The notes below the pieces were generated by a model. The model did no database searches, was not told where the DNA came from, and was given only the letters and a program-made list of their open reading frames with translations. Below, piece after piece: positions 6,515-38,083 of a stretch of 64,000 nt of DNA. The stretch spans positions 62,001 through 126,000 of the forward strand of contig JAWWNJ010000067.1 in NCBI GenBank assembly GCA_037176885.1. Direction: 5' to 3'. The translations under genes and the position numbers were made by a program. Source of the DNA: Favolaschia claudopus (lineage: Eukaryota > Basidiomycota > Agaricomycetes > Agaricales > Mycenaceae). Positions within the stretch are counted from its first letter, which is position 1; each line of letters opens with the position of its first letter.

Positions 6515-6521
6515 CATTCGT
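6515..6521. repeat. Left target-site duplication of element A (CATTCGT)
   Basis: CATTCGT lies immediately before the CA that begins element A. The same seven bases follow the terminal TG of A at 38077-38083. Seven-base duplications directly abutting both inverted tips are the mark of a cut-and-paste insertion. Confidence 0.8.
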
Positions 6522-16970: not shown

Positions 16971-17187
16971 TTATTCCCTGCTAATCAACTATTTTCTGTG
17001 TACACTATTGTGAACGTTGTGAAAAACCCCCAGCAAAGCCGCTTTCCGGCGTCTAACCACTGCCGGTGCGCCGGCCTCAAATTTGGTCCTATTAGGTCTG
17101 AACACTTTGTCATCTCTCCATTTGAAACCAGTCTTGGACGAGTCGGGCGACTACCTGCAAACCTGGCAACGAACCGACTCCGCACGC

Positions 17188-17520
17188 ATGGGCCCGTTTG
17201 GGGCAGCTTTCGCCGACGGCTGGCGGCCCGCCGAATTATCCGACTACTCAGACGCGTGTCGCGCAATCGAAAATCTCTTGGTCTGGCAGAAGCGCCCTGA
17301 ATCAAGTCGTCACCCCGCTGGGATTTGCACTGTGTCGGTGTGCGCGGCGTTCTTTGCCCGTGCCGTTGCTCTGGGGCTTAATCATCGAACGACTTTTCAT
17401 CCGACATCGAACGTCTTTATTTTGCAAGTAACATGGATGTATTGGAACAAGGATTCAATTTAGCAGCTCAACCTCCCTGAAAATATACCTTCCACCACAT
17501 ACATCGTAGAGAAAAAATAA
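17188..17520 (+). CDS. Uncertain small gene, no family recognised
   Basis: A frame open from about 17083 reads in a protein-like way (DESGDYLQTWQRTDSARMG, then DGWRPAELSDYSDACRAIEN). Its first ATG is at 17188. The frame can splice from a GTAACA donor after 17427 to an acceptor near 17462 and end with TAA at 17520. A separate plus-strand frame at 17563-17938 (MLRTDTMTHLAYRGG and onward) could be a further exon or a second gene, but I found no splice that joins them cleanly. The true start may lie upstream in an exon I did not find. Confidence 0.3.
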
Positions 17521-18201
17521 GAAAGACTATTCCAGTGAGTACTGCGTGTTTATCAGCTGAAAATGCTCCGCACAGACACCATGACCCACCTGGCTTATCG
17601 GGGCGGTGCATTTCGCGTGAACTCGAGCCCGCATGATGCGGATTCGCGCATGAAATTGCTGAATTTCTCCGTAAGTACGAGCGCGTTGGCGGGCCCGGGT
17701 GATGAGAAACCGGATGATCGTCAGGTCGTTTTGAATATCCTCCCAACGTCTGGTTGCGGCCGTGCAGGTAAGTTCGTTATGGAATGTTATTCAAACACAC
17801 CGTTGCTCAGCATTATTCCAATCCAGGTCCACCATTGGTACTTCCGACTACGGGCAGGGAGCGGAGGTGAGAGTGGTGCGACAATCTCACGGGCTCTCTA
17901 TTTTCCTTGGGAGGAGGAACGGGCCGGAGCTGAGTAACGAAACCACCACATGGGTGAGACAGAATCTTTTGGATCTTTGATTGAAGATGCTGATGCTTCT
18001 GGACGCCACCACTTTGGAATGTGTAGAAGCGGTAGTATCGCAGCTCACGCCTGAGCAGGATTTGCGCCACAATCAACCACGGAGAAATATCTGCCGGTAG
18101 AACGGTACGGTTTTGTTGGCCGAAAACGAGATATTGTAATCGTTGTGGTTTTCCAGCTTGTCCTCCCACCACCTCTCTTTTTTCTGTCGCACTCGCCCCC
18201 A

Positions 18202-19786
18202 ATGCAAGCAACTGGCAATGTCCTCATCGTCAATCCCAGGCGCCGCCGTTCCCGTGAGTAATATTTCAGTGAATGAATATCTGTTACCGATTTTCTTTCT
18301 CCTCGTAGTGTTGCCGCGCAAAGTAGCGGTGAAGGCGAACGACGATTTAGCGGAGAAACGACTTCGACGACGGGTGTTGGAACAAGAACGCCGCAAGGAA
18401 GAAGAACGCCGCCAGGAACAACAAGAACGTCGCAATCAAGAAATCCCCGTCGTGCCAACGCCCGCTGAGGCAGCGAAAGCCAGGGAGATCGCTGTAGGTG
18501 TTGAGAAGGCGCTCGAAGAGATCGAGGACGCGTACATGAAGTAATATTTTCTTCTTTCTTCATGCTCTTGATTCTTTCTAACTGAGTCTTTCAGGAGCCG
18601 CAACAACGGCAAGGTCTTCCGCTCTCGGTTGCTGGGAATGTGAGTGTCAGAGATCTGTATTATTGCTGTTTGAATTTCGCAAATTCTTTCGTAGATCTCT
18701 TGCCTCTGAGGACGATGAGGTCTTGTCGGCTGAAGATCAACAAATTGCCAGCAACTGGGAGTTAGCCGTCAAGTTTGCGTTGGAGAAGGCGGGAGAGCTT
18801 GATCGTCAACAGTGGTTGCGGGAGTGGCGGGAGCAAGAGGAGGAGGAACGCCGGTGGGAGGCTAATGAGCGTCGATGGTGGGCAAACCGCGAGTACGCCG
18901 ATTACTCGCCCCACGACGGCACAGAATACGTTGAGTAACTTTTTATTTATGACTTCAAAAATCATGTTTTGTTTCGTTTGCGATTAGTGGGTTGCTATAC
19001 CTAAGTCCCTGCAGCTTTGCGGTACGTTGTCCGATTTAGCCTTTCAACAGCAACTGACATTCGAATCTTTTAGACGCCACAATCCGGGTTCGCGAGGGAT
19101 GGGGACATTATAATCGTGTGGTGCCTGGGGGTATGTACATACATGTCTTGTCTTCTTTGAGTTGAGCTGAGTATTCGCAGATCTTTTCAGGGGCGAGCCT
19201 TCGATTGAAATGAGCTACCCTATCCCTTCAAAAGTATTTTCCTCGCTCACTTACGACTATGGCTGTCCCTTTCGTTCTTGTTCTTACGGTGAGCATTACG
19301 AGGAGCAACCCTCAACTGATCAGACGTTCGGCGCCGCTGCGATTGAGCAGCGTCATTGGGTCAATGCTGAACGAATCGAGGCCGCATGGGCGGAACTTGG
19401 TCATGGTTGGACCCCAAATCGGAAGGAACTCGGTCCTGGTCGGCGACAAGATTCCCTCTTGTTAGCAACGTCAACATCGTGGCAAGGCCGGACCATAGTC
19501 GGAGGTCCACCGCCTGTCGCGAAGTGAGTTATATTTTTTTTATTGAATTCATGGATGTAATCGCTGAAATTGTGTGTTGAGGACTCGCCTGAACGTCCAA
19601 ACCGGCTCTACCAACAACATCGAGGGACGATTCGGGCGCTTGGAGGAGATTGATGAAGACTATATGCCAGGGTTGAAGTCCGTCGACAGCAGTGACGATG
19701 ATGAGAGTGAGAGTGACGATGATGAGAGTGAGAGTGACGATGAAGAGGATCAGTGGACATTTGTTCCACTTAGGGCTAAGCTGTAG
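18202..19786 (+). CDS. Unrecognised charged protein with acidic tail, element A cargo
   Basis: The first exons (18202-18253, 18309-18540, 18595-18639, from 18695) join in phase and code a basic N-terminus (VLIVNPRRRRS) and a long charged helix with many EER/KEE runs, then WLREWREQEEEERRWEAN. The frame can stop at 18938. Alternatively a GTTGAG donor at 18930 leads to an exon starting near 18990 (WVAIPKSLQLCDATIRVREG) and on to SYPIPSKVFSSLTYDYGCPF and WVNAERIEAAWAELGHGW. It ends at 19786 after an acidic tail with three DDDESES repeats (19696-19745). I favour one gene because the frames agree across those introns, but it could be two. No domain is recognised. The coiled-coil plus acidic tail suggests a protein-protein role. 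Confidence 0.45.
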
Positions 19787-20473
19787 TTATAGTGTTCTCA
19801 ACAATCTCTAGTATTTCTCTTGTACGCGGACGACAAAAGTACAAAATTTATCGAAGTAGACTTGAAGTCCAGTTTAAGCGCCCAAGCGCTTGAGCAATTT
19901 ACGTACCTTCCTCTAGAGAAAGGTACGTAATAATACTTGAAAAATATTCATGTCTGGTCTGCCCTTGCTAGAGACACAATATAGTGTGTCTTTGAAATGT
20001 AAGTCTCCACTCAAACAGCATCTCAATTGACTTGCAACTATCCCTAGGGCTGAGGGAACTTAACGTCGGCCGCTATTTGTACTTGTTGAGCTTTTGCTTC
20101 TACCTGAGCGAAATATTGCTCAAACATGGGGGGTGTAAAAGATTCAGGTGAAAAGTTTGATTTCAGGATGAGAATAGATACCTGTGCAATCTAGGAGAGT
20201 ATTTTCTACTTTGCTGAATTTTGATTTTGGAAGTTGGAACCATGCGAGGCCGGCCGTGGGCAACCAGCACAGCCACTCCGAGTGCTTCCGATGCCTGTTG
20301 ACTGATTGATGGCGACAGGCAGTGCTTCTACCGACCACCATCCCCGCCTATGCGTCGTTGTACACGCGTAGGCCGGGGATGAGTTATAATCATGCTGGTC
20401 TCTGGATACCTGGGCTTGCTCCCTCCGCTCTCCACTCTCCTCTCTCCGCTCTCTGCTCACCCCCCCGATTTTC
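19787..20473. other. Intergenic region upstream of the element A transposase
   Basis: About 690 bases without a convincing frame. It presumably holds the promoter of the transposase gene that starts at 20474. A pyrimidine-rich tract (20410-20475, repeating ctctcc) lies immediately before the start codon, as in many fungal promoters. Confidence 0.4.
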
Positions 20474-21847
20474 TTGATGAAGAAGCACAAACGCAAGCCG
20501 ACAACGACAATTACCTTCAGTTTGGACAAGCCAACTCTCGATAACCCGAGCAGCAGTGGCGCCAGCTCTAGGATAGACCACATTTTGCGGGAGAAGACAT
20601 CTGTTGCTCAGGGCGATGGTCATACACACCGAAAATCCTCGCTTTTGAAGGTCAATGTCCTCGACCAGCGCCCGAGTCGCGTTCGACCTGACGTTCGCGT
20701 GTCTGAACCGATCTACGACGCCCACGACGCTGCTGACTATGACGACAACCTCGAGTCTGACGAAGGTCCTCGTGAAGCTCGCGATTCGGTAAATAATCGC
20801 AAAAATCCTTTCGATAACATATACTCACATGTGGATATCAGGATGATCCGCTTCGTCAATGGGCGGAGGATTATCGTAGCGTGTATCTGTCTGAACTTCT
20901 GAGGTGGGAGGGAAGAGGGGACCACGCCGCCTTCACGACGTGCAGATGTCGTAGCGGTGCGGCTGATTATAGGTGCAGCGATTGCCTCGGCGGAGGAGAG
21001 TTGTTATGTGCAGGGTGCATGACGACTGCTCATCGCCAATTGCCGCTTCATAGAGTTCAGGTGCGTACGTTCTAGCTATCAGGCACGTCCTTTTGCTGAG
21101 AATTTCGAAGAAATGGTCAGGCGCGTTCTTTGAGCCCGCAAGCCTCAAGTCACTTGGAGTGCGCATTCAACTCGGGCATTGGCACGGGCAATCTAAGAAA
21201 TGCCTGTTACCCGAGCACGCGGCCGGTGACGACTTCGTTATCCTCGACACCAACGGGATTCATAGCGTCGGGCTCGACTACTGTGGATGTGGCCAGAGTG
21301 GTCCTCGGGAGGTCCAACTTCTCCGCGCCCAACTCTGGCCTGCTACAACCACCAGCCCGAGGACCGCCGCCACCTTCTCCCTCCTCCGCCATTTCCATAT
21401 ACTTTCTTTTGAGTCGAAATGCGCTATTTTGGAATTCTATCAGACCCTGGCGAGATTGAGTGATAATTTACACTACAAGAAGGACAAGGTGAGACTTGCC
21501 TACAAACTTATCGAGGCAGTACTGAAGGATTTGTAGAATCGCTATCACGAGCTTCGGCGGATCATACGGGAGTGGAAAAACGTTCGGATGTTGAAGCGAG
21601 CGGGGCGTGGGCACGCAGTAGACGGAGTAGCGGGGACACGAGCAGGGGAGTGCGCGTTGCTATGTCCTGCGTGCCCCCAGCCCGGCAAAAACATGATCGT
21701 GGGTTGGCAAGACGTTCCAGACGACAAACAGTGAGTCAATGATCCTCTGGTGAGCAACCTCTAACGTCAAGTTTACAGATTTAAAAATGCGTTATTCCTG
21801 GCCATCGACGCCAATTTTCGGCTCAAGCGCAAGGACGTTTCTACCGA

Positions 21848-21854
21848 GGAAAAG
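21848..21854. repeat. Left target-site duplication of element B (GGAAAAG)
   Basis: GGAAAAG directly precedes the terminal CA of element B and recurs directly after the terminal TG at 35335-35341. It lies inside exon 5 of the element A transposase, where it codes part of Glu-Glu-Lys. Keeping a single copy restores the reading frame. Confidence 0.88.
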
Positions 21855-21923
21855 CACCCCATTAGGTGCCGTCTTTGCAAAAAGTACTTGGCCAACCCAG
21901 ACGTGTTTTGCAAAAAGATGTTG
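21855..21923 (+). repeat. Left terminal inverted repeat of element B
   Basis: The repeat begins CACCCCATTAGG. It carries CTTTGCAAAA at tip positions 19-28 (21873-21882) and TTTTGCAAAA at 21906-21915. The second motif is a perfect palindrome. The mirror copy lies at 35266-35334. Confidence 0.85.
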
Positions 21924-22104
21924 GTGCCTATATAAAGCAGCAGATGTTCATGTTTACTGTTAGGGTGCTTGCCCGGCTTCTCCGGCATCATCTATACATC
22001 ATGTAGCCGCCGGCAGGTCAATCAGAACTTGATTCAGATCATTTTCCTCCAGATGCCGAGCTCACCGAACCCACAATCAAAAATGATGCGCTTTAAAATA
22101 ATAG

Positions 22105-22245
22105 AAAAATAGAGAAAGCGCCTACGGCGCCTACAGGCGGTAAAAGAGCGAAAATGAATATTAATAAAAAGAGCGCCCACGGCGCCTAGGGACGGAAAAG
22201 ACTCGAAAATGAATATTTATAAAATAGGCGCTATAGGCGCCTAAC
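22105..22245. repeat. Three-copy palindromic subterminal repeat of element B
   Basis: Three units carry a GGCGCC-centred palindrome (AGCGCCTACGGCGCCTA, GAGCGCCCACGGCGCCTA, AGGCGCTATAGGCGCCTA), spaced about 60-70 bases apart and separated by GAAAATGAATATT. They lie between the transposase stop codon and the left tip. Subterminal repeats of this kind are common transposase-binding sites; that role is inferred. Confidence 0.6.
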
Positions 22246-22293
22246 CCGCCCGCCTGCTGAATCCCGCCGTTTCCCGCCGCCCGGCCGTCCACG

Positions 22294-25200
22294 CTACTCC
22301 TCAACCTCACCCCCCATGAAGAACTCTTCATCGCTAGCCACCCCGCCGGCGGCTTCATCGTCGTCTTCGTCTTCGTCGTCGTCGCTGCCCGCCTCCTCCT
22401 CCTCATCCGCCGCCTCCGGCATTGCGGGCATACGCTTGCGACCGCGGCCGCGATGGATCTCCGTCATGCTCACCTCCAACCTCGCCGCTAGCTTGCGATA
22501 CATCGCCGCCTGCCCTAGCGCGTAAGCAATTGCGCCCTGGGCAAATCCCACTTCCACGCTTCCCACCGGTATATCCTTTACCCTGTTCTCCCACTTCACC
22601 GCCTCGTGCTCAAACGAAATCAGAGAGCGGCGGTGCTCCTCCTTCAAGAGCCCGACCTCTTCCGTCCACCGCCGGCTGCGGGCACGCGCCTTCGTCCATT
22701 CGATGCGCAGCGCGTCCTCTAGCTCAGCGTCGGACCCCGTCGTCCCCGCCTCCGTCCATATCCACGATACCTCCCGCCTGTTTTCTGCCGGGTTGGCCAC
22801 CGCCTCCTCCTCGCCCTGAGCGTCTTCCTCAAGCATCCTCACATCCTCCCCCTCCTCTTGCAAGCGCCGAATTCTCTCCTAACGCGTGGCGTCCTGCCGA
22901 GCGCGAACCGCCTGGCGCTTTGTCAACTCCTCGGGATCCTCCATCGTTCTCACGTCCTCCTTCCGCAACCTCCGCCACCCAACCTTTGAAACATCCCCGC
23001 CCGCCAGCATACGCAGCGCATCCCACGCTGCTTGGTATTTCTCGGAATGAAGACGTATCTTGCTCTCGTTTCTCGCCACCAGCGATCGAGTGCGAGTATT
23101 GGCGCCTTGATGGCGGGCGTGGAGAGCTTTATAATCGAAGTACCGGCTCTTGATGTGGAGCTGGTTGCGAAGACGCATGAGCGATTCGGAACATTGAGCA
23201 TCCCGTAGAAGCTGCTCAATGTGCTGGACTCCCGCAACGCAGCCCACCTCCCGTTCCTCAGGCGTCAATGCCGAGGGTAGCATCAAGGGGGTCGTCTCCG
23301 GGAGTTCCTCCGCCTCGCCTCCGCGCCGCGCTAACGCTTGAAGCGCCCCAGGCGAGTACGTGGCTTGAAGTTTGCGGAAGCGGACAATGCCGCGGCTGAG
23401 GGTTCGGCGTAAGGCGATTATGTCGATTTGTTGAGTGGTGGTGCCAGCCTTCTTGAGCTCTATCTGAACGCGTAACCGACGCCTTGAATTACCGTCAGTA
23501 AGCAGCCACTGGTAGCGGGGAGAATATACGCACTGTTGATCCTCCAATTCCAGTCCATTGTGCACGAAGGAACTGGGGCTCACGTCATGAAGAGACGGAA
23601 CCCCTTTCGCTGCATCGGCCGCCTCTTCCTCCGCCAGCTTCAGCCTCACATCCGACTCCTTCAAGGCTAAGAACGCGTTAGTTAGGAGTGCATGAGAGCG
23701 GGCGACAATAACGTACCGCTCGTTGTAACCTCGTACCGCCTCGTACTCCACTACCATCTTCTCCCAACCCACCACCCGCTCCCCCTGCTCCGCCGTGAAC
23801 GCCTCAAACGCCTCCGTTTGGATATCTCGCTCGCGCGTGGCTTTGTCGAGGCGCTTCCGGAGCAATTCTCCTGCGAACATCGTCAGCATTCCGCAATCCG
23901 TTGAGGAGGCATGCTTACCCAAAGTAATCAGCTTACACCAGTTCCAGAACGCCCAATGGTCGTCCAGAACATCCGCCCGCGACCCCGGACCCATCTCCCG
24001 CGTACTCGACGCCACGCCGCCAATGTTTGCCCAAGGACGCTCGATCCCTTCGCCGTCGGTCTGCCCAGCGCCCGCGAGATAGTTTAATGAGAAGCAGAGT
24101 TGACATCTGAGCGTGTGGGCGTGTATGTGCATCTTCGGGATCACAAAGGCCACGATGTGGAGGATGAGGGTGAGGCGGACGAGAGGAGGGAGGTTTTTAA
24201 GCCGTTCCAATAGATTCTTAAACCATTGACAAACAATGTCGTATGAGATGACCTTGGGAAGGCGGGCGTGGATGAACCGGAGGATGCAGGCGGTGATCCA
24301 GTCCATATTAGCGTACCTGAATGAATCAGGGTCAGCGGGGACGGGGAAATGGAGCGACGAACACATACCGCTCTCCTTTTTGCAAATCGCCGACGCCCGT
24401 TGGTTGCACAAACTCATGGCGCGCGCAAACCCCCATCCCCACCCCTGTGACGCTATATCCCCTCGAAAACTTTGTATTCGCGTAATCCAGCGCAGCCAAG
24501 CCGCTGCAAGTACTCATCTAGAAGCTAGTCAGCATACGCCTATAAATCTAAACCTGTGATAGAGCTCACCTCCACCTGGTCTGTTACCGTCAATAAGTAC
24601 TGACGATATGGCTCGGGCTCGCAGAAATAGGACCAGCCAGCGCCGAGCGCGGGGTCACGCAAGGCGCTGGACACGAGGCGGCGCTTGAGGCGGAAGCAGG
24701 CGTCCAAGGCAAGGAAGAAGGTGTAAAGATATCTACAATGAGCGGCAATCAACAACTGTGGACGTCCAAAATGCTGAGCACAAACCTGAGTTCCGGCACA
24801 ATATCCTCCCAATTCTCTGGAAGGTTTATACCCGGACGAGGGCAGGCGGGGCATCGTATCGCCAGCTCGCCGGCCTGCGTCCCATTCACACCGCTCAAGG
24901 CATGCCCCCGACCGCCACGCTTGAGCATAAGCAGGTGGCGAAATATCCGTGTAACCCGCAGGAATTCGCGATAGCGGTAGGGGAGCGGGCCACCCGTTCC
25001 GTCGGTGAGCTTCTCAACGGCTGAATAATAGTCGTACATCGTCGTCTTCCCCTTGAGGGTCTGGATGTGGAAATTGTCGAGGAGGCGGAAGGTAAAGGCG
25101 GTTCGGGGCACCTGGTGGGTGGCAGGGAACCACCGGTAGCGTAGGAGTTGGACGCGATCCTCGCCAGACTCTATCTCCCGCTCACACCCGCAAAAGTCCA

Positions 25201-26068
25201 CCGCCACTTCGTGGATGTAATCGACATCCACGACAACAAAGTTCTCGTGTCCTGCGCGTGGGCGGCCGCAGCCTGGGTGTCCAAACTGAATGCGCAAGCC
25301 AAGAGCTTTCAATGAGGTCCGGGTAAAAAGTTGCCCATCCCAAGCCTACGGAAGATAGAAGTCAGTGTGCGTGCATCGAGGACGATATCCCCAGACGTAC
25401 ATCTATGATATGCAGCGGGTTAGCGGCGTGAAGAGCCAAGCAGCATTCCTTGCAGTACAAAAGATTGTCGTGACAATCGCGACAGCGATATACGGGGGTA
25501 CGGATGTCACAGCGGGGACAGAGATCTTCCGGGGCGTCGCCACACCCGTCGAGTCGCAAGAATTCACAGAGGTATTCATCACGCAGGCGGCGCAAATCAT
25601 ACAAGGCCGGATCCTGTGATTTCGCGTCAAAACAGCAAAGTAGTTAGGATTTTTATGACATACCGACGGCTTGAAAGCCTTCTTCTGCCGCGCGCGCGTA
25701 GGGGACGGAGGCCGCAAGAAAAAGCCTCCAAGGTCCATGTCATACAACTCTCCATTGATGCCTTGGGGCTCAAAGTCGGGATCGAAATCATGGAGAGACG
25801 GAGGTTCGAGTGGAGGCTCTGCTGCCTGGATACGGGCACGTTTGACGGGTGATGGTGGATCAATGGAGACAACTTCCGTTTGCACGCGACGACGGTCGGC
25901 AGTAGGTCGTTCCACCGTCGCTTGGATTGGGGCGTTGATTGGCGGCGTAATAAAGTCGGCCACGGAGGTATTCACTAGATATTCTTCAGTGGAACGCTGG
26001 GCTCCGCGCAAGAGGGGGCGTTTAGAGGTGGCGACGCGTCGCTTGACTGGGGGACGCGCATCCGACAT
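22294..26068 (-). pseudogene. KDZ transposase of element B, with an in-frame TAG
   Basis: I model exons 26068-25664, 25613-25401, 25345-24786, 24732-24570, 24517-24369, 24316-23919, 23870-23534 and 23482-22879, giving 942 residues to a TAG at 22881-22879. The same frame continues to 22294 for 194 more residues that align with the C-terminus of the element A enzyme (VSWIWTEAG against ISWIWVTRG; LRIEWTKARARSRRW against VRIEWAKTRARSLRW). The TAG therefore looks like a nonsense mutation; CAG to TAG would fit. The CxC2 cluster is intact (LCPRCDIRTPVYRCRDCHDN, then CKECC and H). The core shows LALDACFRLKRR (Asp 403), SYDIVCQW (Asp 523) and QTDGEGIERPW (Glu 586). The core is complete, so the truncated protein or readthrough could still be active. 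Confidence 0.88.
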
Positions 26069-26494
26069 CCCGCCAAAAAAAATTGGTGGCAAGCGGACGT
26101 AGTGATGGTCACGCGTCACATCGGACATCAACAAGCTATCGGCCGAGGCCATCCACAAATCTTTCTAAGTCCCTCTTACCACAAACTCGTAAACTCAGAC
26201 GTCAACCAGCCCTCAAGCAACCTCAAGTTACCTTTGGGTTACTCGGACCTTGCTCGGACTACAATCAACCTCGACTCTTACTTTGACGCCACCTAATGAC
26301 TTCCACATCCCTAATTACTTCCACATCGTCACCACCATCTCAACTTTGATTGTCGCATCCCATCATATCAGAATCAGCTCAAGCACGCATGGACCGTTCT
26401 CCAAGGCTTGGCGACTCGGAATTATACCCGGACGATAAAAACAAATCATGCTCCTTTGCGAATCCACCAGTAACCCCCACCCTCTGCGAAGAAA

Positions 26495-28387
26495 ATGTCT
26501 CTGCCCAGTAAGTTTCTTTCTCCCTTTGACTAAGCGTTTCGTGGCTCCGACCTTGGAGCTGCAGAACGCAGTAACCTCCGCCTTCACTGCAACGGTTCTG
26601 ACGCGCCAATTCCAGGGTTAACGAGGTCGGGGGCTGAATTCAGCCCCTTCTCAGGAGCGGTTGCCCTTCGACTACCCCACATCCGACTGCGGGACTTACT
26701 TGCTCGGCGCGAAGACGGTCCTGACTCTGACGCCGAGTCGGACGAGGACAGCGACGAAGAGATTGCCCCCCCCACCAAACCCCGACCCCAACCCCCTACG
26801 TTCCCTCGCCCAACCCGCGCCCCAGCGCCCGCCGCCTCCAACGGCGCCATGCCCGGCTCGGTTATTCGCTGCGCTCGCCCCGACCGCCCCTCAACAACTC
26901 CCGCCCCAGCGCCTGCTTCCTCCAGCGGCGCCATGCCCGGCTCGGTTATTCGCTGCGCTCGCCCCGACCGCCCCTCAACAACTCCCGCCCCAGCGCCTGC
27001 TTCCTCCAGCGGTGCCATCCCCGGCTCGGTCATTCGCTGCGCTCGCCCCAACCGCCCACCAACAACTCCCGCCGCGCCAGTGCCAAAGATCACGGGCAAA
27101 TCCCGCCGGCAGGCCAAAAAACACGACAAGCAGCGTGCAGCTCGGCGCGAGGTGCGCGAACGCCGATGCGTAGAGGCTGGAACACGCCTCAAGCACATCT
27201 CCAAGCTTCGTGTTCGCGGCGCCGTGCCGCTATTCCTCCACCTGGGGCTTGGTGATATCTTCCACGCGCCGGTGGCGTCGTCGGGCTGGCAGGCGGTGCG
27301 CCAGACGGAAGAAAATCCCCGCGCGCATAGCCTCAAGGAACTACTGGCGGCCGAGCCAGACATGCGGGTCTATGAGTGGCAAGGGTACGTCCACTTGCTC
27401 TTTCATCTATGATTCATTTCTCACTGTGACCCCAGGGAGCCGACCCCCGTCGTCGACGCCGACAACCTCCTTTTCTTTGCCCTGGGTGGCTTCCCAGACG
27501 ACCAACCGGGGCGTAGTTGGGACGAGGAGGTCGCGAAGCCCGCCGCCAAGGACATACGCGCCACTGCCGTCGATATCTACACGGAACCTCGGTGGCTTCG
27601 TAAGCGGCGTGCGCGCAACGGCGAGTCGGTCCCGCGTCGAGGTCCGCACGCTGCCAAGACCATCGGGATTTCTATGGGCGGCGGCCAAACCCACCCCCAG
27701 AATACTGCGCACAGCGTTCGCCTCCATCGGCTCCTCACCAACCTGCTCGCATTGCAATCCATTCAACGCATTGCCGGTTGGACGAATAGTAAGTCCGTCG
27801 GACCCTACCCCAGCCATTACGCTAACCCCCCGCCAGTGCTGTTCATGGCATTCGCCAAGCAGCTTCACTCCTTCTACGAGAAGGAGCTACGCTCTGTCTG
27901 CGAGCACGACCCGCGCACGATCCGCAACTTCCCCGCACGGCTTTCCGTCTTTTCGATGGTGACCATCAACTTCGGCCCCGCGACGGTAACTTTCCCGCAC
28001 ATCGACTACCGCAACCTCGCCTGGGGGTGGTGCGCCATCACGGCGCTCGGAAACTACAACCCAGACCTTGGAGGACACCTCGTTCTCTGGGATTTAAAAC
28101 TCATTATTCGCTTTCCGCCGGGGTCGACCATTCTGATCCCCTCCGCAATCCTCCGCCACTCGAATACCACGATCCAAGCCAACGAGACGAGGTTCTCCTT
28201 CACGCAGTTCACCCCCGCCGGCCTCTTTCGTTGGGTTTACAATAAGTTCCGCACCGACGCCGACATCAACAAGTCGAAAACGACGACGCCGGCTGAGCAT
28301 GAACAAAGGAAGAAGGATCGGGCTAGGCGCTGGGATGAGGGGGTAAAAATGTATACTCGGTGGCAAGGACCCGTCTCTACCGTGTAG
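26495..28387 (+). CDS. TET/JBP-family 2-oxoglutarate/Fe(II) dioxygenase, element B cargo
   Basis: I model four exons: 26495-26507, 26565-27384, 27436-27788 and 27837-28387. They sum to 1737 bases (578 residues). The first exon is only 13 bases (MSLP plus one base). The N-terminal third is acidic and then holds three 28-residue repeats (AMPGSVIRCARPDRPSTTP and onward), followed by a basic stretch KSRRQAKKHDKQRAARREVR, perhaps a nuclear signal. The catalytic part has FGPATVTFPHIDYRNLAWGW, giving the metal ligands His 450 and Asp 452, then GGHLVLWDL, FPPGSTILIPS and LRHSNTT (His 503), and ETRFSFTQF (Arg 514, the 2-oxoglutarate contact). This matches basidiomycete TET/JBP proteins, which oxidise 5-methylcytosine or related bases in DNA. 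It lies head-to-head with the transposase, 426 bases apart, so they may share a promoter. All key residues are present and I see no break. Confidence 0.85.
26847..27074 (+). repeat. 84-base in-frame tandem repeat within the TET/JBP gene
   Basis: Units start at about 26848, 26932 and 27016 and code AMPGSVIRCARPDRPSTTP followed by APAPASSSG. Units one and two are nearly identical at DNA level; the third differs at a few bases (Ile for Met, Asn for Asp) and is incomplete. Because 84 is a multiple of three, the copy number can change without breaking the frame. Confidence 0.85.
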
Positions 28388-28931
28388 TTACAATATTATA
28401 CCGCAATATATCATTATTATTCTCAGCTATCATTTCGGGGACCTTATTCGGATATGACGAACACGTTATGGTATGACGAACTCGAGCGGAGCCGAGCGCC
28501 ACGGACAGCGACCTACCACTCAGCGGCGACCCCATTCCGACGAATTTCAGTCACAGTGGCGACAGAGGTGTTCCCCCTATGGCCCTGAATTTTATTGGAA
28601 TTTTTCTACAACTTCGATCTGAAAGCAAGTCAAGGTAAAGTATGGGCTCGAAGGCTCGAATCCATGTATGGATTCCTGACCTTCACCACCACTCTCGAAA
28701 ATCGACCAGACTCAAATTTTCTGCTTAACCGCTCAACACCTTCGTTCATATCCCAATACTCGTCTACATTCACTTCTGGCTTAAAAACTCATCCAATTCG
28801 TCGACAACGCCTCTGACAACCCGAGCCTCGTTTCGTCTTGATCCGACCAAGGTGAGCCTCAAACCCCTTCATACACCTACTGCTGATTCTCCGGACAAGC
28901 TCACCGGCAATCCTTACACTCCCCCACATCT
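28388..28931. other. Intergenic region between TET/JBP and basic-protein genes
   Basis: Contains a GC-rich tract (28470-28570) and a possible 5' exon-intron junction (accaag/gtgagcc near 28851) for the downstream gene. No convincing open frame. Confidence 0.4.
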
Positions 28932-29595
28932 ATGCCCGTCAACACCGCCGCCGACGTCGTCAACAAATCTTCATCCGCTCAGCTTCAAGCTGCGGCGCGA
29001 TACCGCGAGAAGTCGCCGTCTTACGCTCCACAATCCCTGCGCCGTTAACGCAAGTCACCTGTAGAAACAAGAAGGAGCTTCAAGCGAAGGCTCGCCAACG
29101 CATGGCTCGGTGGGTTTCTCTCACAAAGATGCTCAATCGGCGATCGTCGACAAATACGTAGGCATCGCGCGCGCCTCGCAGATCTACCTGACGAAGAGCG
29201 TCAAGAACACCGGGAGAAGGCTCGGGCATGGGATGCGCGCTACCGCCAGCGTCATGCGTCGACTTTGGCAAGTAGGCAGGCGGATCGGCGGGCGATGTGC
29301 GGTCTTTCTCTCCATACTAACCTCTTACGCTAACGCTCGAGGGGACAGGTCTTACATCTCGAGGCACGGTTGTGATGCCTGGCTACGGAGGCGAGGCGGT
29401 GGTACGGGAAACGAGGAGGAAGGATCGAGCGGGGAGGGCGGGGGTTCTGAGGAGGACGATGAGGTGGACAGGACCATGCTGCGGAAGCGTCTCGCGCAAC
29501 GGCGAGCAAAAAGGTGCGTGTCTTCCCTCTTCATGATCTCTTTTCCTTATTCTCATCTTTTCCTTCTACCTCGCAGGTCCGGAGAACGTGTTTGA
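28932..29595 (+). CDS. Small basic 'KARA/ARQR' protein, element B cargo
   Basis: I model five exons: 28932-29011, 29065-29109, 29162-29296, 29349-29513 and 29577-29595. They sum to 444 bases (147 residues) with matching phases. After a short start (MPVNTAADVVNKSS) the protein is a run of basic helix: QAAARYREKNKKELQAKARQ, RMARHRARLADLPDEERQEH, REKARAWDARYRQRHASTLA. It ends with SYISRHGCDAWLRRRG, an acidic linker and LRKRLAQRRAKR. The basic-helix part resembles the element A protein at 13286-14336. In transposase orientation both genes point the same way, which supports shared ancestry. The function is unknown; nucleic-acid contact is inferred from charge. Confidence 0.6.
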
Positions 29596-29790
29596 CGGGC
29601 TTAAATGTCCCTTCACTCTGACCCCGCCGCCTGTTAGCCATCAAATGGGTCGTATGTAAGTATCTTGAATAGTATAGTGCTAGTATCGTTTGTAAAATGT
29701 CTTGAATGTCATAATCGACTTGTCGCTGTTCCAACGAAGGATGGGGTCTTTTAGCAAGATGAATTCGTCGCGTTACATGGTATAGGATGT

Positions 29791-30383
29791 CTAAGATTGG
29801 TCTACGGCCGCGCGACGAGCCCGACGCGCGTCGGCGGCGTCGCAGAGCTTGTGAAGGACTGCTTGCAAGCGCTCCCACGCGCGCTCGGCCTCGTCGATGT
29901 CGTTGGTGTCCATCATAGCCGCATGCTCCGCCTCCGTCAATTCTCCGTGGTCCAAAAGCTGGTCAAGGGCAACCTCCGCGCGCTGGAGAGGGTCGGTTTT
30001 GGGGATGAGGAAATCGTGGAGGGCGGTGGTGAACTCCGCAATGGTTTCGAGGGTGTTGGCGCGGTTGGCCGCACGCTGAGCTGGGGTGAGGTACGGCGTG
30101 AGCTCGAGAGGGTTGTGGCGCTCGTTTTCGTCGGGGCCGGTGATTTCGTCGGGGCCGGTGAGGAAAAAGGGCTCGAGATCGGTTTGACGGACCCCAGCCT
30201 GCATCTCGCGGATGGGACGGGGAGGAGGGAAAGTGAAGGCGACGTCGGCCGAATTTTCGTCGGTGATATTTTGAGTGTTTTCGCTAAAAAAACATCAATC
30301 ACTCGATCACTGTCACTTGTTTTTTTCTCTCACCTCGTCTCCGCCGCCGTCCGCTCCCCATCCTCAACGTTCTGCGTGTCCAT
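29791..30383 (-). CDS. Small helical protein, element B cargo
   Basis: I model two exons, 30383-30334 and 30283-29791, coding 180 residues. The start is MDTQNVEDGERTAAETR. The middle contains GPDEITGPDENERHNPLEL, a small internal repeat, and then LTPAQRAANRANTLETIAE. The rest is predicted helical (RAEVALDQLLDHGELTEAEH, ERAWERLQAVLHKLCDAA) and ends RRARRAAVDQS. I do not recognise the family. The two-exon phase agreement and a long frame with few rare residues support a real gene. It is divergent from the next gene at 30591, with about 200 bases between the start codons. Confidence 0.55.
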
Positions 30384-30590
30384 GGAAGATTGTAGTGCGG
30401 TGAGTGGGGAGAGTAATGGTTAGGTTAACGATTGAGTAATGCTTGCGCCCAGACCGCGGGAATGTGGCGTGCCAGCCTATATAGCTTCGCTGGCAGGCGA
30501 GTCCTCTTCGTCTTCGCTCCAGTCTTTTTGCCTCCCCAAAAACACCCTCAACAATCCAAAATCTTTCCTTCCACCCTTTTGCAAAAAAAA

Positions 30591-31711
30591 ATGGCTTCCT
30601 CTGCTGCTTCAACTCGTACTCGTTGTCGCCCAGCCTACTACCCCCGCCCTGGCTTTGAAGACACCACCAGCGTCGACCGCATGACCAACGAGCGGTATCA
30701 CATCGTCTTCGAGGGACGCGCAATCGGCGTCTACCCCAATCCGTACGCCTCCTTCGTTGTGCTCTTTTCTTCTTCTGCTAACTCTGTAAATTTTAGCCTG
30801 GATGCCAATGCGCAGACGAACGGGTACTCAGGCCAATACCAGCGCGCGGTCAAGACCTGGGAGGGGCCCAACAGCGTCGAAATCCTCTGGGACCGCTACT
30901 GCGACGAGCATCATCTCGGCGGCTGCCCGACCCCAACTCTCCCCGACGGTTTCACCGCTTCGACCCCCGTTTGGCGGCATGGGACTCGCCGCTCGGCGCG
31001 AGTTCCTGACCCGCATTACGTTCCCAACCCCCCGCGCACGCCGCAGCGCCCCCGCACGGCTGGCCCTCAACTCGGCTCCCCATTCGTGGTCCCCTCGTCG
31101 GTGTCGCCGGAGCCATTGCCGCCCTACGTCATGCCTCGCGCGCCTTTGCGCATCGTTCCCCACAGCCCGATCTTCCCGGGCTACCCGGCCAGCTCCGCCG
31201 CTACTGAATCCTCCCATTCGTGGTCCCCTCGTCGGTGTCGCCGGAGCCATTGCCGCCCTACGTCATGCCTCGCGCGCCTTTGCGCATCGTTCCCCACAGC
31301 CCGATCTTCCCGGGCTACCCGGCCAGCTCCGCCGCTACTGAATCCTCCCTCACGTCCACCGACAACTCCTCTCCTCGCTCTCCCCGCACCCCCATCGAAA
31401 TCGACAGCGATCCCGAGGCTGAATATGTCTCCACCGACTTCGACTTCGAGTCTCTCGACAACGGCTTGCCTAACGAGTTCGGGCCCTTGTGCTGGGGCAT
31501 CATGGGCATGCGTCGCCGCATCTACGACCACCCTCTCCCCGCCATCCGCGCCGCCGTCTCGGCCAACGTCGGCCCCATGATGATTCTCATGTCGGCGGTG
31601 GACGAGATGAGCTTGGAGGGCATGCATGAGCTGGAGCCCCCCTCGCCGGCCTCGCAGCCCGTCAACTCGCAGCGTTCGCAGGCGGTCGCGGGGCCGTCGA
31701 GGCGCGCGTAG
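30591..31711 (+). pseudogene. RNase H1 N-terminal-like protein, frameshifted by a 134-base duplication
   Basis: Exon 1 is 30591-30742 and exon 2 starts at 30797. The N-terminal domain reads RYHIVFEGRAIGVYPNPLDA, NAQTNGYSGQYQRAVKTWEG and then VEILWDRYCDEHH, the pattern of the small hybrid-binding domain at the N-terminus of RNase H1. A Pro/Ser-rich linker follows. Within it, 134 bases are repeated exactly (31081-31214 and 31215-31348). Since 134 is not a multiple of three, the reading frame changes after the first copy and ends at 31580. Without the second copy the frame runs to 31711 with an acidic, ordered C-terminus (DPEAEYVSTDFDFESLDNGL, CWGIMGMRRRIYDHP) of 310 residues. The frameshifted form would be 311 residues with a basic Pro/Arg-rich tail. 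An assembly error cannot be excluded. Confidence 0.7.
31081..31348 (+). repeat. Exact 134-base tandem duplication
   Basis: Two adjacent copies, each starting CATTCGTGGTCCCCTCG and ending GCTACTGAATCCTCC, with no difference that I can see. Identity this high points to a very recent event or to an assembly artefact. Confidence 0.9.
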
Positions 31712-32315
31712 GTGGGTATTTCGGACTTCTGGCTTTGGACGATATGTAAATAGATTGCTCGCTGTTCGCTACGTTTCCCTCCTCATCCCTACGCGCACCA
31801 CCGCTATTCCGGCTTCTGCCCCTCCTCGTATACCTTTTGGACTTGCGCTTCATCCTCATTGCTGTGTTTTTTGGACCCTCGCTCTGCCCCGTCCCTCCTT
31901 GTTTCACTCGCCTCGCCCCCTCGTACTGTAGCCGTTTCCATCCCCCTCTCCGCACTCCTCCAGCTGTAGCTTCTTGACCCTACCTCTCGACGATCTTCTT
32001 GTATTGCTACACATTCTTGTATTCCGCTCGCTGTCTACGTCTCATTATTTACCTGCCTTTCATGTATCTATTCTTTGTTGCTTGTAAATATATTCATCTT
32101 CGTGTAAAGTCTGAGTGAAAGTTTGGAAATGACTTCGTAGAATCTTTGGAAATGGTAGAAAAGTGGACTTAATGCATTTGGAGAGAGCACTTTACAAACT
32201 TGTATGTAAAAGTAGCGTAGCTTAATGTAAGTGGCGAGCGTATTCGGCTCCCCGTTTGCCTCGCGACTCGCTGACTCGCCGACCCACCCACCCTACGACC
32301 CTATCGCAGCGACCA
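31712..32315. other. Intergenic region in element B, no gene seen
   Basis: About 600 bases, strongly C/T-rich from 31770 to 31970 and AT-rich from 32030 to 32220. It probably holds the 3' end of the upstream gene and the promoter of the WF-motif gene that starts at 32316. Confidence 0.4.
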
Positions 32316-34785
32316 ATGGCCCAAGACAACAAAAAGAAAACCAGAAAAGCGAAGGACGACCCTCCGCAAAAAAGGGGAAACCCGGGAGATTTCCGAGGCT
32401 CGCGCTTGACGTTCTTGAGAAGCAAGCTGCCTGAATTCTGCAAGCATTCGGACGCCCGCACGACGCGCGAGTTTTGGAAGAAGCTGTGGGCGGAATATTG
32501 GGCGCTTTACCCGTGGGAGGTGCCCATCACCCAAGAGCCCCCGGATGACTTGGCTGGGCTGGGGAAGGCAGACTCAGTGCTGAATCCAGAGGAGTTGGCG
32601 TCGAAAAATGACATCAAAGACAAGGCGCAGACTGTAAGTGATTTTATTGTCGAGGCCGGTCGAATGGCTGTCTCACGCACCGTAGAAAATAAAGCGGTGG
32701 TTTTCATATGCGCGTCACTCTGGCAAGGGCGGCGGCAACCCTTTTGGCAAGTGGCTCGCCCAGTTGCGGCGTGTCGACGAGCGCGCGCCGAAACGGCTTG
32801 CCCTGCACCAGGTATACATGCAGGATGAAGAAAAGAACGACGAAATCAATCGTCTCTTGAAAGAACGCCATCCGGAGTTGGTAGGTCGCCAGAACTCCAT
32901 CAAAGAGCGGACGGCGATTGCCAGGGAGTTGCTAGAGGCAGAAGATCCGGAAATCAGGGAGGAGTACCGGTTGAGGGGGGAGGAGGAGTACCAAGAGGCG
33001 TTGGAAGAGTTCAAGAGCGGGGAGGGTGCAGATGCGGCCGCTGAAGAGGACGCTGAGGCGCGTCAAGAGTAAGCTACGCCTTGGAATGGTTATGAATTGA
33101 CGAAGGCTCACGTTTGTATAGGGCTCGAGGCCGCCTCGCGGTTACAATCCAGCCCCTGCTCGACTCCATCCGCGCCATTACTGGCTGCCAAGTCCTGCTC
33201 ATCGCCGGCACCGTCGTTGAGGGTCGTTTTGACGTTCGCACGCTGCACGGACACGCGCGAGAGGAGGACGGGCTAGAAAAGGGATTGGACTTCACGTCCT
33301 GGGACACGACCGGCTTCAAAGGGGTCATGGATCAATGGATGCGTTATCTCATTGCGGCTGGTAAGTACCTTTGTGAAAAGCTTGAAAGACGGCGCGCTAA
33401 CACGCCTCACAGCGGCAGAACCGAACGCGACGGGGCCAACGAAGCCGGTAGATCGCGGCTCAAACGAAGAACCACCTCCACCCGCTGCTGACAATGCGGC
33501 GGAGGCTGCGCCCAGCGATGTTGTTGTTGTCGACAAAGAGCCGCAGGCGCCTGCTAACGACGGAACGCCGCAGGCACCGGCTAACGACGAGACTCCAGCG
33601 CCGAACGATGGTGCGGGAGGTCCAACGAATGGAGAGGAAGAGGGCGGCGGTGGTGCTGGCCCAATGGAGGTGGAGGAGGTCGTAGCGCCTGAGTTGGATC
33701 GAATGGCGGGCGTCGGCAGTCCGCTGAAGCGCACTGTACGGGCGATGACGCCAGACTCCCGCGCCGCTCGCGTATTCGAGCTGCAACATATGAACGAGTT
33801 TTACCGCAACCGGGAGAATAATAAAGCGATGGCGATGGAGAAATTGGAGCAGTTGGGGATAAGGGGGGAGGTCCAGGGCTTGATGGCTGAGCTCAGGGCC
33901 GCGAATAAGCGGGGAGCGGGCGATGAGGAAGTAGGAGGAGGGTCGCGGGTCACCAAGCGAGCTAAGACCAAAGCGTCCCCGAACGACGACGACGACTACG
34001 GTAGCGACGACGACGAGGAAGACCGCGCAGCAACGCCGAAGCCGGCGGAACCCCCCCGTCCACGTCCGCGACGCATCGTGCGCGGTCTTGTAGAGCCCAC
34101 GGCTGACGCGCCTGCCGCCGACGCCAATGCGCCCGTACCCGACGTCAACGCCACGCCCGTACCCGACGCCGACGCGATTGCGCCCGTGACCGACGCGAGC
34201 GCCGATCCCGTAACTGCAGACGCTTCCCCAGCCGTTGTCGTTGTGCCGAAGTGGGCTCCGCATTCCCGCAAACTTCTCGAGACGGGCGAAGGGGGAGAGG
34301 CGTGGAACAAGGTGGTGGAAGGATGGTGGAAGCGGGAGGAAAAAGCTGCATTCAAAGGGCCGGTAAGTGAAATGGAAAGAAATTGCATGCGTGCGCAGTG
34401 AAACTGACCTCAAAAACAGAAAACAGGGGCTGCAGCGAAGGACAGACCGGGGGAGATCAAAGGATGGATCGCCCGAGCGCGTACCGGTGGACCCCAGCCC
34501 CCTATCAAGGACCTCTTCACCTTCAGCGGAACGTGGTGGAATTGGTGGATGAAGCTGAACCCCAGCTGGCGGGCGAAGGCGTATGATGGGCGGCGTTTAC
34601 TCAAGGAAGGGGAGGGCGAGTGGGAGGTGTTGCAGAGTCAGACTGGGCCCAACGGCCTGCTCAACGCATTGATATGTTTACGCTGGTGGCGGGATGTGCT
34701 GGGGGAAAATGCGGGCCAGAGGGAGCTGAAGGAATGGGCGGAGGCAGTGGAGGAGGTTAATTGGGTCCTAAATGAGATTTCATGA
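32316..34785 (+). CDS. WF-motif (homeodomain-like) protein, element B cargo
   Basis: I model five exons: 32316-32633, 32686-33068, 33122-33360, 33413-34362 and 34420-34785. They sum to 2256 bases (751 residues). The N-terminus is basic (MAQDNKKKTRKAKDD), then LTFLRSKLPEF, FWKKLWAEYWALYPWE and, at residues 107-116, KIKRWFSYAR, the counterpart of QIDNWFHNTR in the element A gene. An acidic helix follows, then LLIAGTVVEGRFDVRTLHGH and GFKGVMDQWMRYLIAAA, matching the same block in A. The middle is Pro/Ala/Asp-rich with an NAPVPDVNATPVPDAD-type repeat. The C-terminus has GTWWNWWMKLNPSWR and LLNALICLRWWRDV, a block the A paralogue lacks. The family is unnamed to me. Its place at the tip opposite the transposase in both elements suggests it belongs to the element's own machinery. 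Confidence 0.75.
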
Positions 34786-35265
34786 GTTCTATTCAACCCT
34801 ATGCTCACTGCGACGTACCATGTTAACTGCTCCCCCAAGGCGGAGGGAAGGAAGCGCGGGAGGGCCGAAGGAAGGAGGCGGGAGCGCCAGCGCCAGCGCC
34901 GGCGCGTAAGGAGGGGTTTTGAAGCGAATTTAGGTCGAGGAGGCCGCGAGGAGGCGAGGAGGAGGTGTATATACAACGTATCTTGCTTTTCTTGCGTGTA
35001 AACGGCCCAGCCGTGTGGGGGGGAAGTGAAAAAGAGGCCCATCAATTTATGCTGATGATATGTTTTCTTGATTGATGCCGTCAATCCGCTCGGAAGGCGT
35101 TTCCGAGCGTCAAACAACAAACTCCGAGGGCAACGGAATGATTTTGGCGGCGCCGAGGCCATCAGGGCATCATTTGCCATCAACATCAATATTTTCGAGG
35201 CCCATCAACCCATGCCGGTGTGCCATACCCTTGTATATGCTTAGGTGATTGATGGCTTGGGAGGT
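34786..35265. other. Right subterminal region of element B
   Basis: No gene seen. It contains a hairpin-forming sequence (gctcggaaggcgtttccgagc near 35089-35109), a purine-rich tract (34840-34970) and an AT-richer stretch just inside the right tip. Confidence 0.4.
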
Positions 35266-35334
35266 CCAGATGTTTTTGCAAAACACGTTTGGCTACGCCA
35301 ACTACTTTTTGTAAAGAATCAACTATATGGGTTG
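35266..35334 (-). repeat. Right terminal inverted repeat of element B
   Basis: The repeat ends ATGGGTTG. It carries CTTTTTGTAAAG with its outer edge 19 bases from the tip (35305-35316) and a perfect TTTTGCAAAA at 35274-35283. It mirrors 21855-21923. Confidence 0.85.
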
Positions 35335-35341
35335 GGAAAAG
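35335..35341. repeat. Right target-site duplication of element B (GGAAAAG)
   Basis: Identical to 21848-21854. The element A transposase coding sequence resumes at 35342 with Asp-Pro-Gly-Leu-Gly. Confidence 0.88.
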
Positions 35342-37718
35342 GATCCGGGGTTAGGCGACGGATGGGCCTTCATATGCGACGTGAAGGAGTATATGACCCA
35401 TGTTAAGAAGCATTGGGGTATGAATCAACCGGTACGCGTCACGAGCAAACGTCTACTGGATAAAACTGACCGAGACACAGCGAAGTCACTGCGTAGCTCA
35501 CGATGCAGTCGACAAGCCCGATCGGGAGGTCAGGGGAACAGCATCGTCGGGTATCGGCGCAGTAGACTGTGCGCGGCACAATATGAAGCGACCAAGCGCT
35601 GTGGGCGATCTGCAGCTGGGAGAACGGTGAGGAATTTCGCTTTATTGAGTCTTGAATATTGTATTTATCTTGTCTTAGGTACATAAACATGGATTACATC
35701 TTCCTACGCAGCATCGCCGACTCGCCTTTGAAACGACTTGTCGCCTCATACGACATCGCATGCCAATGGCATCTCAATTTGTTCTCTCGCATGATGCTTT
35801 ACGACAACGACACACTCACGATCGACGGCGCTGGGAAATCATTCACGTTTCTGGTGCCGAAATTCCATCTGCCAGCGCACATCGAGGCCTGTAACCTCAA
35901 ATTTTCTTTCCACTTGACGCGCGACGTTGGGCAGACGGACGGGGAAGCGCCCGAGCGTGGCTGGGCTGACGCTAACCCTCTGGCCCGGAGCACCAAGGAG
36001 ATGGGTCCGGGATTCCGTCGTGACACGCTGGACGATCATTTTAACGATTGGAATCATAAAAAAATCATATCATTGGGTGAGTCGAGCTTAACAGAAGTCT
36101 ATTCGAGGGACTGACATGTCTAAATAGGATACACCATACGCAGGAAGCTCGAAAAGGCGGTACCGGAGATGGTGAGGACCAGGGAAGCGCTATCTGACAT
36201 GAACGAATCGGTCGGCGGCGGGGTGGTGGAGAAATGGACCGAGATGGCGGTAAAATGGGAGGCGGACATCCTCGCGCCGAACCCATTCGAAACGCAGCGT
36301 AAAGATGAGCACGTCGCAAAAATACGTGCTGAGCTTGCTGCGGAGGCGGCGGAGAGAGAACGGACAGGGCGGGAAGAGGAAGGAGCGATCAGGGGGGATA
36401 TGCATGTAACGGAGCTCGTGGCGATGGGCCTCCAGCTTGAGGAACAGCAGTAAGTGTCTTCAGCTTCCGCCATCGCGTTGCATATGCTAACCATCTTTCT
36501 CCAGGCGTGTTTTGGCCGCTGATGTATCGTCTACCGGCCAACACCCCACGGATGGTCAGCGTCGCGCGATGACCGAGCGTACCAGCAAGCTGCGCCGCAA
36601 GATCGCTTCCTGGATAGACGTGCAGCACAAGTTCTGGCCGGAGCTGGCGAACGTGCGCGACCGCGAAGACCGTGAGCGGGCTGAGCAGTGCCAAGGCGAG
36701 TACGTCCCAGGGGTGAGGGTCCCCGCTATCGCATTGTGGCTTCCCTCTGGTGTGTACGCGTCGCTGCGGCTAAGCGAGGTCGTCATTCAGACGTCGGTCT
36801 TGGAAACGGAGTATCGCCTTCGCGTCGCTCAGGCCGCAGAGTCTCTCCATGAGGTTCGGAGGTCTCTGCTGGTGCGGACGCATTTGTACAAGATGAAGGA
36901 CAAGCACGACAGAGGTGTGCGAGCCAATACTCGGTCTTCCGACAAGATTTCCGCGTTGAATGAACAAATCAAGCGGGCGGCGGCAACTTACCGCGTGGCT
37001 CGGGAGGCACTGGTGGTCCTTGGTGGAGTGCTGAGACGGAATGAGTGGGAATGGAGCTTCCTTGAGCTGAAGGAGGAGGACGTGCGCGGATTGCCGCAGT
37101 CGAGCTTCCACGACCCGGAGAGGAAGAAGAAAAAGAGGAGGAAGCGTCACCGAGCTCAAGAGCCGACTATCTCGTGGATCTGGGTGACTCGGGGAGAACG
37201 CTCGCAGCCGGGTGGTGATGCGGCAATGAATGAAGGTGATGTGGGGCTTCCTTATAGTGTGCTCTTGCTGACCATTTGCTCTAGCGGTGCGTATCGAATG
37301 GGCGAAGACGCGTGCACGCTCCCTACGCTGGGCTGAGGAGGTCGAGTTGCTGGAGGAGGAGATGCGGCGCATCCGGGCGTTCTTGCTGTGGCGGGCGAAG
37401 TGGTGGAGAGAGATGATTGATCTTCTCGGTCGGGAGGCGGGTCCTCAACGCGAAGGAGAGACTGCGTACGCCCTGAGGCAGGAAGCGATTCATACCGCGC
37501 TCGCGGATGAATTTACGAAGGAGTGGGCACATTTACCGAATTTGATACAGATGGGGCGTGCAGGAATGGTGGTGGCAGACGGGGAAGAGGCAACGAACGC
37601 GGGGGAGGAAGGAGAGGGTGGAGAGGGCGACGAAAGCGAGGAGGAGGATGAGCCGATTGACCTTCTCCCGACTCGCGCCGTGAAATCGGCATACACGGAC
37701 GAGATTCTGGATATGTAG

Positions 37719-37975
37719 CTATCGTTTGGCGGTGTAGATGTCTCATGGGAGTGGGCATGCACCCCAATTTTTGTAGATTTTTGTATATTTATTTTGTATT
37801 TTATTCTGGACGACGCGCCGGACGACGTCAAGGCGTCGTCGACGTCGTCTACCAAACATGTACAATTCTGATGCCTTTTACATACACCTCTGCTCATTAC
37901 CTGCGACGACGACGACGATACCCTGGCACTGCTGCCCCTGCCCCTCATACTAAATAGGGATTCAAAGCCGAGGGT
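37719..37975. other. 3' region of the element A transposase and right subterminal DNA
   Basis: The stretch between the transposase stop codon and the first GATATATC of the right tip holds gacgacgcgccggacgacgtc-type inverted repeats near 37808-37850 and no gene. Confidence 0.4.
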
Positions 37976-38076
37976 CTAGAGATATATCAAAATCGACCGT
38001 CAGTGTTGGGCAAGGATATATCAAAGAAAACTCTCACCGGCAGGTCAGTGATATATCATACCGCCATACTAAGGTG
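37976..38076 (-). repeat. Right terminal inverted repeat of element A
   Basis: Three GATATATC copies (37981-37988, 38015-38022, 38050-38057). The outermost sits in TGATATATCA at tip positions 19-28. The tip ends AAGGTG. Confidence 0.75.
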
Positions 38077-38083
38077 CATTCGT
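38077..38083. repeat. Right target-site duplication of element A (CATTCGT)
   Basis: Identical to 6515-6521 and directly abuts the terminal TG of element A. Confidence 0.8.

Follow-up and report, generated by a model that had tools for sequence, protein, structure and literature searches.

A KDZ transposon inserted in the transposase gene of a second KDZ transposon in Favolaschia claudopus

Introduction

Two Kyakuja families of KDZ transposons from Laccaria, Kyakuja-1_LB and Kyakuja-2_LB, produce 7-bp target-site duplications (TSDs), have CA..TG termini and, in the part of the source drawn on here, are described as having no terminal inverted repeats (TIRs; Kojima 2025, PMC12730594). In this study we describe two elements of this general kind in a 64,000-nucleotide stretch of the genome of the mushroom Favolaschia claudopus (Agaricomycetes, Agaricales, Mycenaceae; GenBank assembly GCA_037176885.1, contig JAWWNJ010000067.1, positions 62,001 to 126,000 of the forward strand). 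This whole stretch is referred to as the window, and coordinates are window positions unless another contig is named. The window contains two complete, Kyakuja-like KDZ DNA transposons, one within the other. The inner element, B, lies in the transposase gene of the outer element, A, and belongs to a different KDZ family. A preliminary description, made from the letters of the window without database searches, had proposed this nesting and placed the borders of B; that A is itself complete, with its own ends and 7-bp duplication, is new. Copies and flanks were searched for in the genome assembly (G000; 264.6 Mb, 460 contigs), the contigs of which are denoted by C numbers, with the window on C67.

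Results and Discussion

Borders of the inner element

The borders of element B and its flanking duplications are as follows.

21855..35334, minus strand (strand of the transposase): element B, inner KDZ transposon, 13,480 bp; borders agree with six other loci, each with both ends and its own 7-bp TSD
21848..21854, no strand: left TSD of B, GGAAAAG, read in the sequence
35335..35341, no strand: right TSD of B, GGAAAAG, read in the sequence
21855..21919, plus strand: left inverted tip of B, inverted-repeat match to 35270..35334
35270..35334, minus strand: right inverted tip of B, inverted-repeat match to 21855..21919

Both coordinates and the length agree with the preliminary description, which gave B as 13,480 bases with GGAAAAG on each side and inverted tips. 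The tips, 65 nucleotides each, are imperfect but clearly paired, matching at 50 of 65 positions, against a maximum of 31/65 among 20,000 random pairs of 65-mers taken from the window. The 7-mer GGAAAAG is not rare, occurring 13 times in the window against a mean of 11.63 in shuffled sequences. Since it is common, its evidential weight comes from its position exactly at both tips of B.

The same arrangement is found elsewhere in the genome. A perfect 7-bp TSD is present at all seven B-family loci for which both ends were read, the window included, and all seven are different (C67, GGAAAAG; C64, TGGCGCC; C347, CCCGCTT; C7, GGAGGAG; C16, TGACGAC; C5, AATTAGC; C42, CCTTCTG). Seven base pairs were held in common by chance in 22 of 200,000 random border pairs. 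The elements at all seven loci start with CACCCC and end with GGGTTG. Those on C64 and C347 closely resemble the B of the window, C64 being the nearest copy (96.6–98.9% identity in the main pieces), while C7, C16, C42, and C5 hold relatives that are 73–90% identical in their end pieces. At C188, only the right end was read. C87, which has the same left flank as C347, was not counted separately: B DNA close to the end of C87 and that on C347, a contig of 45 kb, do not differ in 3,399 aligned bases (L003/L007 and L004/L008), and the two copies are probably one locus assembled twice. On C16, three B left ends (L070, L071, and L072, at 1490442, 1513431, and 1536421) have identical 30-base flanks, a spacing of 22,989–22,990 bp and one reported right end, consistent with either a tandem segmental duplication or an assembly repeat.

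Empty sites in paralogues of the outer element

The preliminary description had pointed to an empty site in the genome as a check on the insertion, and such sites are present. Two queries were used, one ending at the left TSD of B and the other starting at the right TSD. Matches of both queries extend to the site in eight relatives of the A transposase (C11, C48, C34, C15, C183, C69, C198, and C6), and in all eight the two flanks meet and overlap by exactly 7 bp. This overlap was read directly in five; for C11, C183, and C34, in which one match ends 1 to 34 bases before the site, it was derived from the offset. As C198 and C6 hardly differ at the empty site, these two are not independent. For C235, C28, C32, and C37 both queries match, but short of the site, and these four were left out of the count; 40 of the 56 candidates of the right-flank query were scored. 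An alignment displays all eight relatives as continuous where the window holds B. These empty sites are paralogues, not alleles. The nearest A relative (C11) is 83–86% identical.

We conclude that B transposed into the transposase gene of A, an ordinary nested insertion, and assign this a probability of roughly 97%, a figure that does not extend to the order of events. A 7-bp staggered cut at GGAAAAG, followed by fill-in, would account for the duplication around B.

The interrupted transposase gene

The target of B is a gene that can be reconstructed from its two halves.

20477..37718, plus strand: element A transposase gene, interrupted by B; homology-guided model
20477-20788, 20842-21060, 21111-21488, 21537-21730, 21779-21854 + 35342-35431 (one exon, split), 35481-35626, 35679-36076, 36128-36449, 36505-37235, 37285-37718, plus strand: A transposase exons

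When B and one copy of its TSD are removed, the coding sequence comprises 3,300 nt in an open frame, with a 166-nt exon over the junction that reads TEEK-DPGLGDGW. The model has 11 exons, counted in the window with the junction exon as two. It was selected as the best fit to four annotated relatives among 18 open models of 13 different lengths; an unguided splice model, which missed true exons, was rejected in favor of the homology-guided one. The junction exon is thereby reproduced exactly as the preliminary description had it (exon 5, 166 bases, with the same peptide). Its further claim, a coding length of 3303 with B between codons 394 and 395, stands as regards restoration of the frame, but in the best model B follows codon 393 and the length is 3,300 nt. 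The discrepancy is only a matter of splice-site choice, as 3,303 is among the lengths of the open models.

In the comparison proposed in the preliminary description, the joined protein aligns with other KDZ transposases from end to end, being 79% and 77% identical to the Favolaschia KDZ proteins P0001 and P0003 over 1,100 columns. It belongs to the KDZ superfamily, with a whole KDZ domain (PF18758) at residues 372–597 (profile 2–217, 1.2e-59) and CxC2 upstream (2.3e-39). The right-hand part of the gene alone matches only profile positions 98–217. B splits the KDZ catalytic domain of A, near the start of the domain, and this copy of A would be unable to make a full transposase of its own. The model contains no stop or frameshift, and no other lesion is apparent.

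These features bear on whether the locus could be an assembly chimera, in which two loci were misjoined and the transposase halves are not parts of one gene. A misjoin would not yield a perfect 7-bp duplication at tips common to six other loci, nor halves that restore one frame, nor an outer pair of TSDs around the whole (see below), and we regard a chimera as exceedingly improbable.

The outer element and the order of events

Element A has ends and a duplication of its own.

6522..38076, plus strand: element A, outer KDZ transposon, tips CA...TG; alignment borders of relatives, tips read in the sequence
6515..6521, no strand: left TSD of A, CATTCGT, read in the sequence
38077..38083, no strand: right TSD of A, CATTCGT, read in the sequence

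A spans 31,555 bp with B, or 18,068 bp once B and a single copy of the B TSD are subtracted. A plain inverted-repeat scan found nothing at the ends of A, since the two tips differ too much; the TIR of A is weak (18/30, with a 10-nt run). The ends were instead taken from alignment borders: at nine other places in the genome the match starts at base 6522, and in eight relatives it stops at 38076–38082. Both ends were read at six A-family loci, of which five have a 7-bp TSD (window, CATTCGT; C198, ACGCAGA; C6, GCTCAAG; C34, CCCCTTG; C15, GCGTAGC), the right end of C34 having been moved back one base to the common ...GGTG before its TSD was read. One end was read at a further seven loci, the right at C11, C69, and C183, and the left at C15 (354767), C49, C14, and C174.

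Across the whole window, the motif TGATATATC is found, in one orientation or the other, at 6540-6541, 6576, 7615-7616, 37981, 38015, and 38049-38050, and nowhere else. All of these positions are inside A, mostly near its two ends, and their placement suggests that they are putative transposase-binding repeats. In the approximately 14 kb of A upstream of the transposase (6522-20400), no Pfam domain was found in the nine frames tested.

Taken together, the outer and inner duplications tell two insertions apart. Most likely, A would have inserted here first, duplicating CATTCGT in DNA without nearby KDZ matches, and B would have followed later. No KDZ matches were found within 1.5 kb outside A, and when the target flanks of A are joined, reading frames of up to 102 residues run over the junction.

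It could alternatively be proposed that B entered A elsewhere, and that the 31.5-kb composite of A and B then moved to this position by means of the transposase of another A-family copy. Intact outer ends and an intact TSD around B would be equally expected had the two moved as a unit, and there are precedents in the parts of a published account drawn on here: in giant elements of Ectocarpus such as KDZ-1, nested insertions are mostly common to the copies, which hence continued to move once hit, and in Chlamydomonas a KDZ element of 31.7 kb was seen to move (PMC12477816). However, no second A with B was found, all eight A-transposase relatives are empty at the site, and the other six B loci have other TSDs, although the donor of a cut-and-paste element could be lost. 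We consider prior assembly of the composite distinctly unlikely.

Several points weigh against the preferred reading, in which B transposed into A where A now lies. The work is confined to one assembly, and searches of it revealed no allele of the locus that lacks B. One A relative with both ends, on C48 (550742-569327), has no matching TSD (GGGAGGA vs. CTTTCGG). The ratios of nonsynonymous to synonymous substitution (dN/dS) for the A transposase are low, as expected for a gene that was functional until lately, at 0.146 (against C11), 0.073 (C48), and 0.069 (C69), but the last two are rough, with dS near saturation (1.7 and 2.1), and the alignments include gap runs of lengths not divisible by three (three in C11, one in C69). 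Lastly, the precedence of A over B at this site would follow from relative divergence rather than having been seen, and is less sure than transposition itself.

About 260 extra bases are present near the right end of the C48 relative. Beside A, a minus-strand frame at 5028-5876 contains a polyketide-synthase starter domain (SAT, 2.6e-11), and similar DNA is found on C41, C19, and C192. Further along the window, at 56941-58005, is a tetratricopeptide-repeat frame (TPR_10, 2.4e-29).

Genes of the inner element

Four features were recognized inside B.

22294..25622, minus strand: B transposase region; Pfam and tblastn
26609..28387, plus strand: B cargo gene with TET/JBP-like predicted fold and HxD motif; third-position-biased changes, relatives P0122–P0149, splice model, and fold
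33277..34401, plus strand: further open frame with no known domain; codon-position bias of changes
31079..31346, plus strand: exact 134-bp tandem duplication, single in the C64 and C347 copies

The B transposase consists of an N-terminal match (about 25622-25386), a CxC2 frame (25345-24752), a KDZ frame (24513-22882), and a C-terminal frame extending to 22294. It is a member of the KDZ superfamily by its match to PF18758 (5.3e-35, profile 98–217), with the CxC2 cysteine cluster upstream (Pfam, 2.9e-38); a second exon scores 21.1 bits on profile positions 1–44, below the curated cut-off of 26.6. The copy in the window has an in-frame stop at 22879-22881, within a continuous alignment to relatives, and the corresponding codon is no stop in the C64, C347, and C87 copies. 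A suspected 23-bp frameshift in the same gene was dismissed, as reading of the frame makes an intron likely at that place.

B also carries a diverged gene of TET/JBP-like predicted fold that Pfam overlooks; it was recognized by reading its frame and by the predicted fold, a double-stranded β-helix close to solved TET structures. The putative dioxygenase has 28 relatives in Favolaschia and Mycena. Across the 29 rows of the family, the HxD iron-binding motif has His in 28 and Asp in 26 (Asn in two, one gap). No Pfam match, Tet_JBP included, was obtained at E values up to 10, and a search of solved structures by sequence gave no credible match, only five weak ones to unrelated proteins. A genome search for Tet_JBP itself (PF12851) gave 38 places, all on contigs other than C67 and so outside A and B; two of these, on C24 and C122, are at most distantly similar to the B dioxygenase (24% in each case, over 78 and 55 residues, respectively). 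The gene has probable introns at 27385-27435 and 27789-27836. A stop suspected at 27410-27412 falls inside the first of these, removal of which restores residues of P0122, and was discounted. No start codon was found, there being no ATG in 26501-26642, and intactness of the gene is thus not shown.

The frame at 33277..34401 is possibly coding: position 3 is the most changed in all five copies compared, but many indels are not multiples of three. The unit of the 134-bp tandem duplication is likewise not a multiple of three.

Target sites of the B family

It is interesting to speculate whether the nesting is more than chance, with the B lineage preferring KDZ transposase genes as targets and so silencing rival transposons. 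The relative on C7 (2923220-2935520; L015 and L090; TSD GGAGGAG) likewise lies within a KDZ transposase gene, one that belongs to another family; KDZ proteins are matched on each side of it, and the joined flanks align with P0074 over 655 columns. This makes two KDZ genes among seven close-family B loci, one of them the case picked for study. The other five close-family loci are without a KDZ match, the 5′ flank examined being limited to 118–135 bp in three of them (C16, C5, and C42), and none of 15 more distant relatives matches KDZ proteins (3′ flanks only, two of the 15 being partly the same flank). Flanks were compared with the 120 listed proteins nearest to A, a set that might overlook distant KDZ genes. 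Neither the C64 nor the C16 copy has a Pfam domain in its joined target. In addition, insertions within transposons survive selection better. Targeting by the B lineage is thus not shown, and we think it unlikely. We are more doubtful still of a broader proposal, that B represents a Kyakuja-like lineage that keeps TIRs, bears a TET-fold dioxygenase of a type distinct from the AG, PU, and PE groups described so far, and has a tendency to insert into rival KDZ transposase genes (two of seven close-family sites). If such a targeting lineage did exist, competing elements would lose their own transposase to it.

Comparison with described KDZ elements

The nesting is in itself ordinary transposon biology, here unusually well documented, and nested insertions in giant KDZ elements have already been published (PMC12477816, in part). 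Our literature searches did not find a KDZ element nested in another, nor a paper that joins Favolaschia claudopus with transposable elements, or Favolaschia and Mycena with the term transposable; on TET/JBP proteins and KDZ elements in Mycena they gave one unrelated paper. What the locus offers is a pair of large mushroom KDZ elements with ends fixed to the base, each with its TSDs and with empty sites in paralogues, together with a TIR-bearing Kyakuja-like family and its TET-like cargo. An element that combines TIRs with an unrecognized cargo of this type could add to what is known of possible routes by which transposons in mushrooms evade DNA methylation.

The comparisons that follow concern the parts of the cited papers drawn on here. 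A and B may be assigned provisionally to Kyakuja by TSD and tips: as in both elements, Kyakuja of Agaricomycetes have a KDZ transposase, 7-bp TSDs, and CA..TG termini (PMC12730594). Like B, Kyakuja carry a dioxygenase of TET/JBP-like fold as cargo (PMC12730594), although that of B is without a Pfam Tet_JBP or Protein Data Bank (PDB) sequence match. The two Laccaria families differ in having no TIRs (PMC12730594), whereas B has TIRs of 65 nt and A a weak one; absence of TIRs is not a definition of the group. Zisupton, of the KDZ group, shares the transposase superfamily and TIRs, but its TSD is 8 bp (PMC12730594), in contrast to 7 bp for all matching TSDs of the A and B families.

KDZ1, KDZ2, and KDZ3 of Cryptococcus neoformans are similar in having a cysteine cluster and TIRs, in their size of about 9–11 kb, and in having been caught inserting into a gene with TSDs. 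They differ in that the TIRs are 139–241 bp, the cluster is CxC1, and the TSDs are 8 bp (KDZ1) or 4–8 bp (KDZ2 and KDZ3; PMC12810828). Intact KDZ transposons of Pleurotus ostreatus resemble the present elements in the position of CxC2 ahead of the KDZ transposase and in their many copies per genome (PMC7641404); that account, as drawn on here, gives neither element ends nor TSDs, and describes no nesting. The giant KDZ elements of Ectocarpus, such as KDZ-1_Ec32, are comparable in reaching 30.3 kb and in holding other transposons. However, in contrast to Ectocarpus, where the inserts are unrelated transposable elements (PMC12477816), in Favolaschia claudopus a KDZ transposon is interrupted, in its catalytic domain, by another KDZ transposon.

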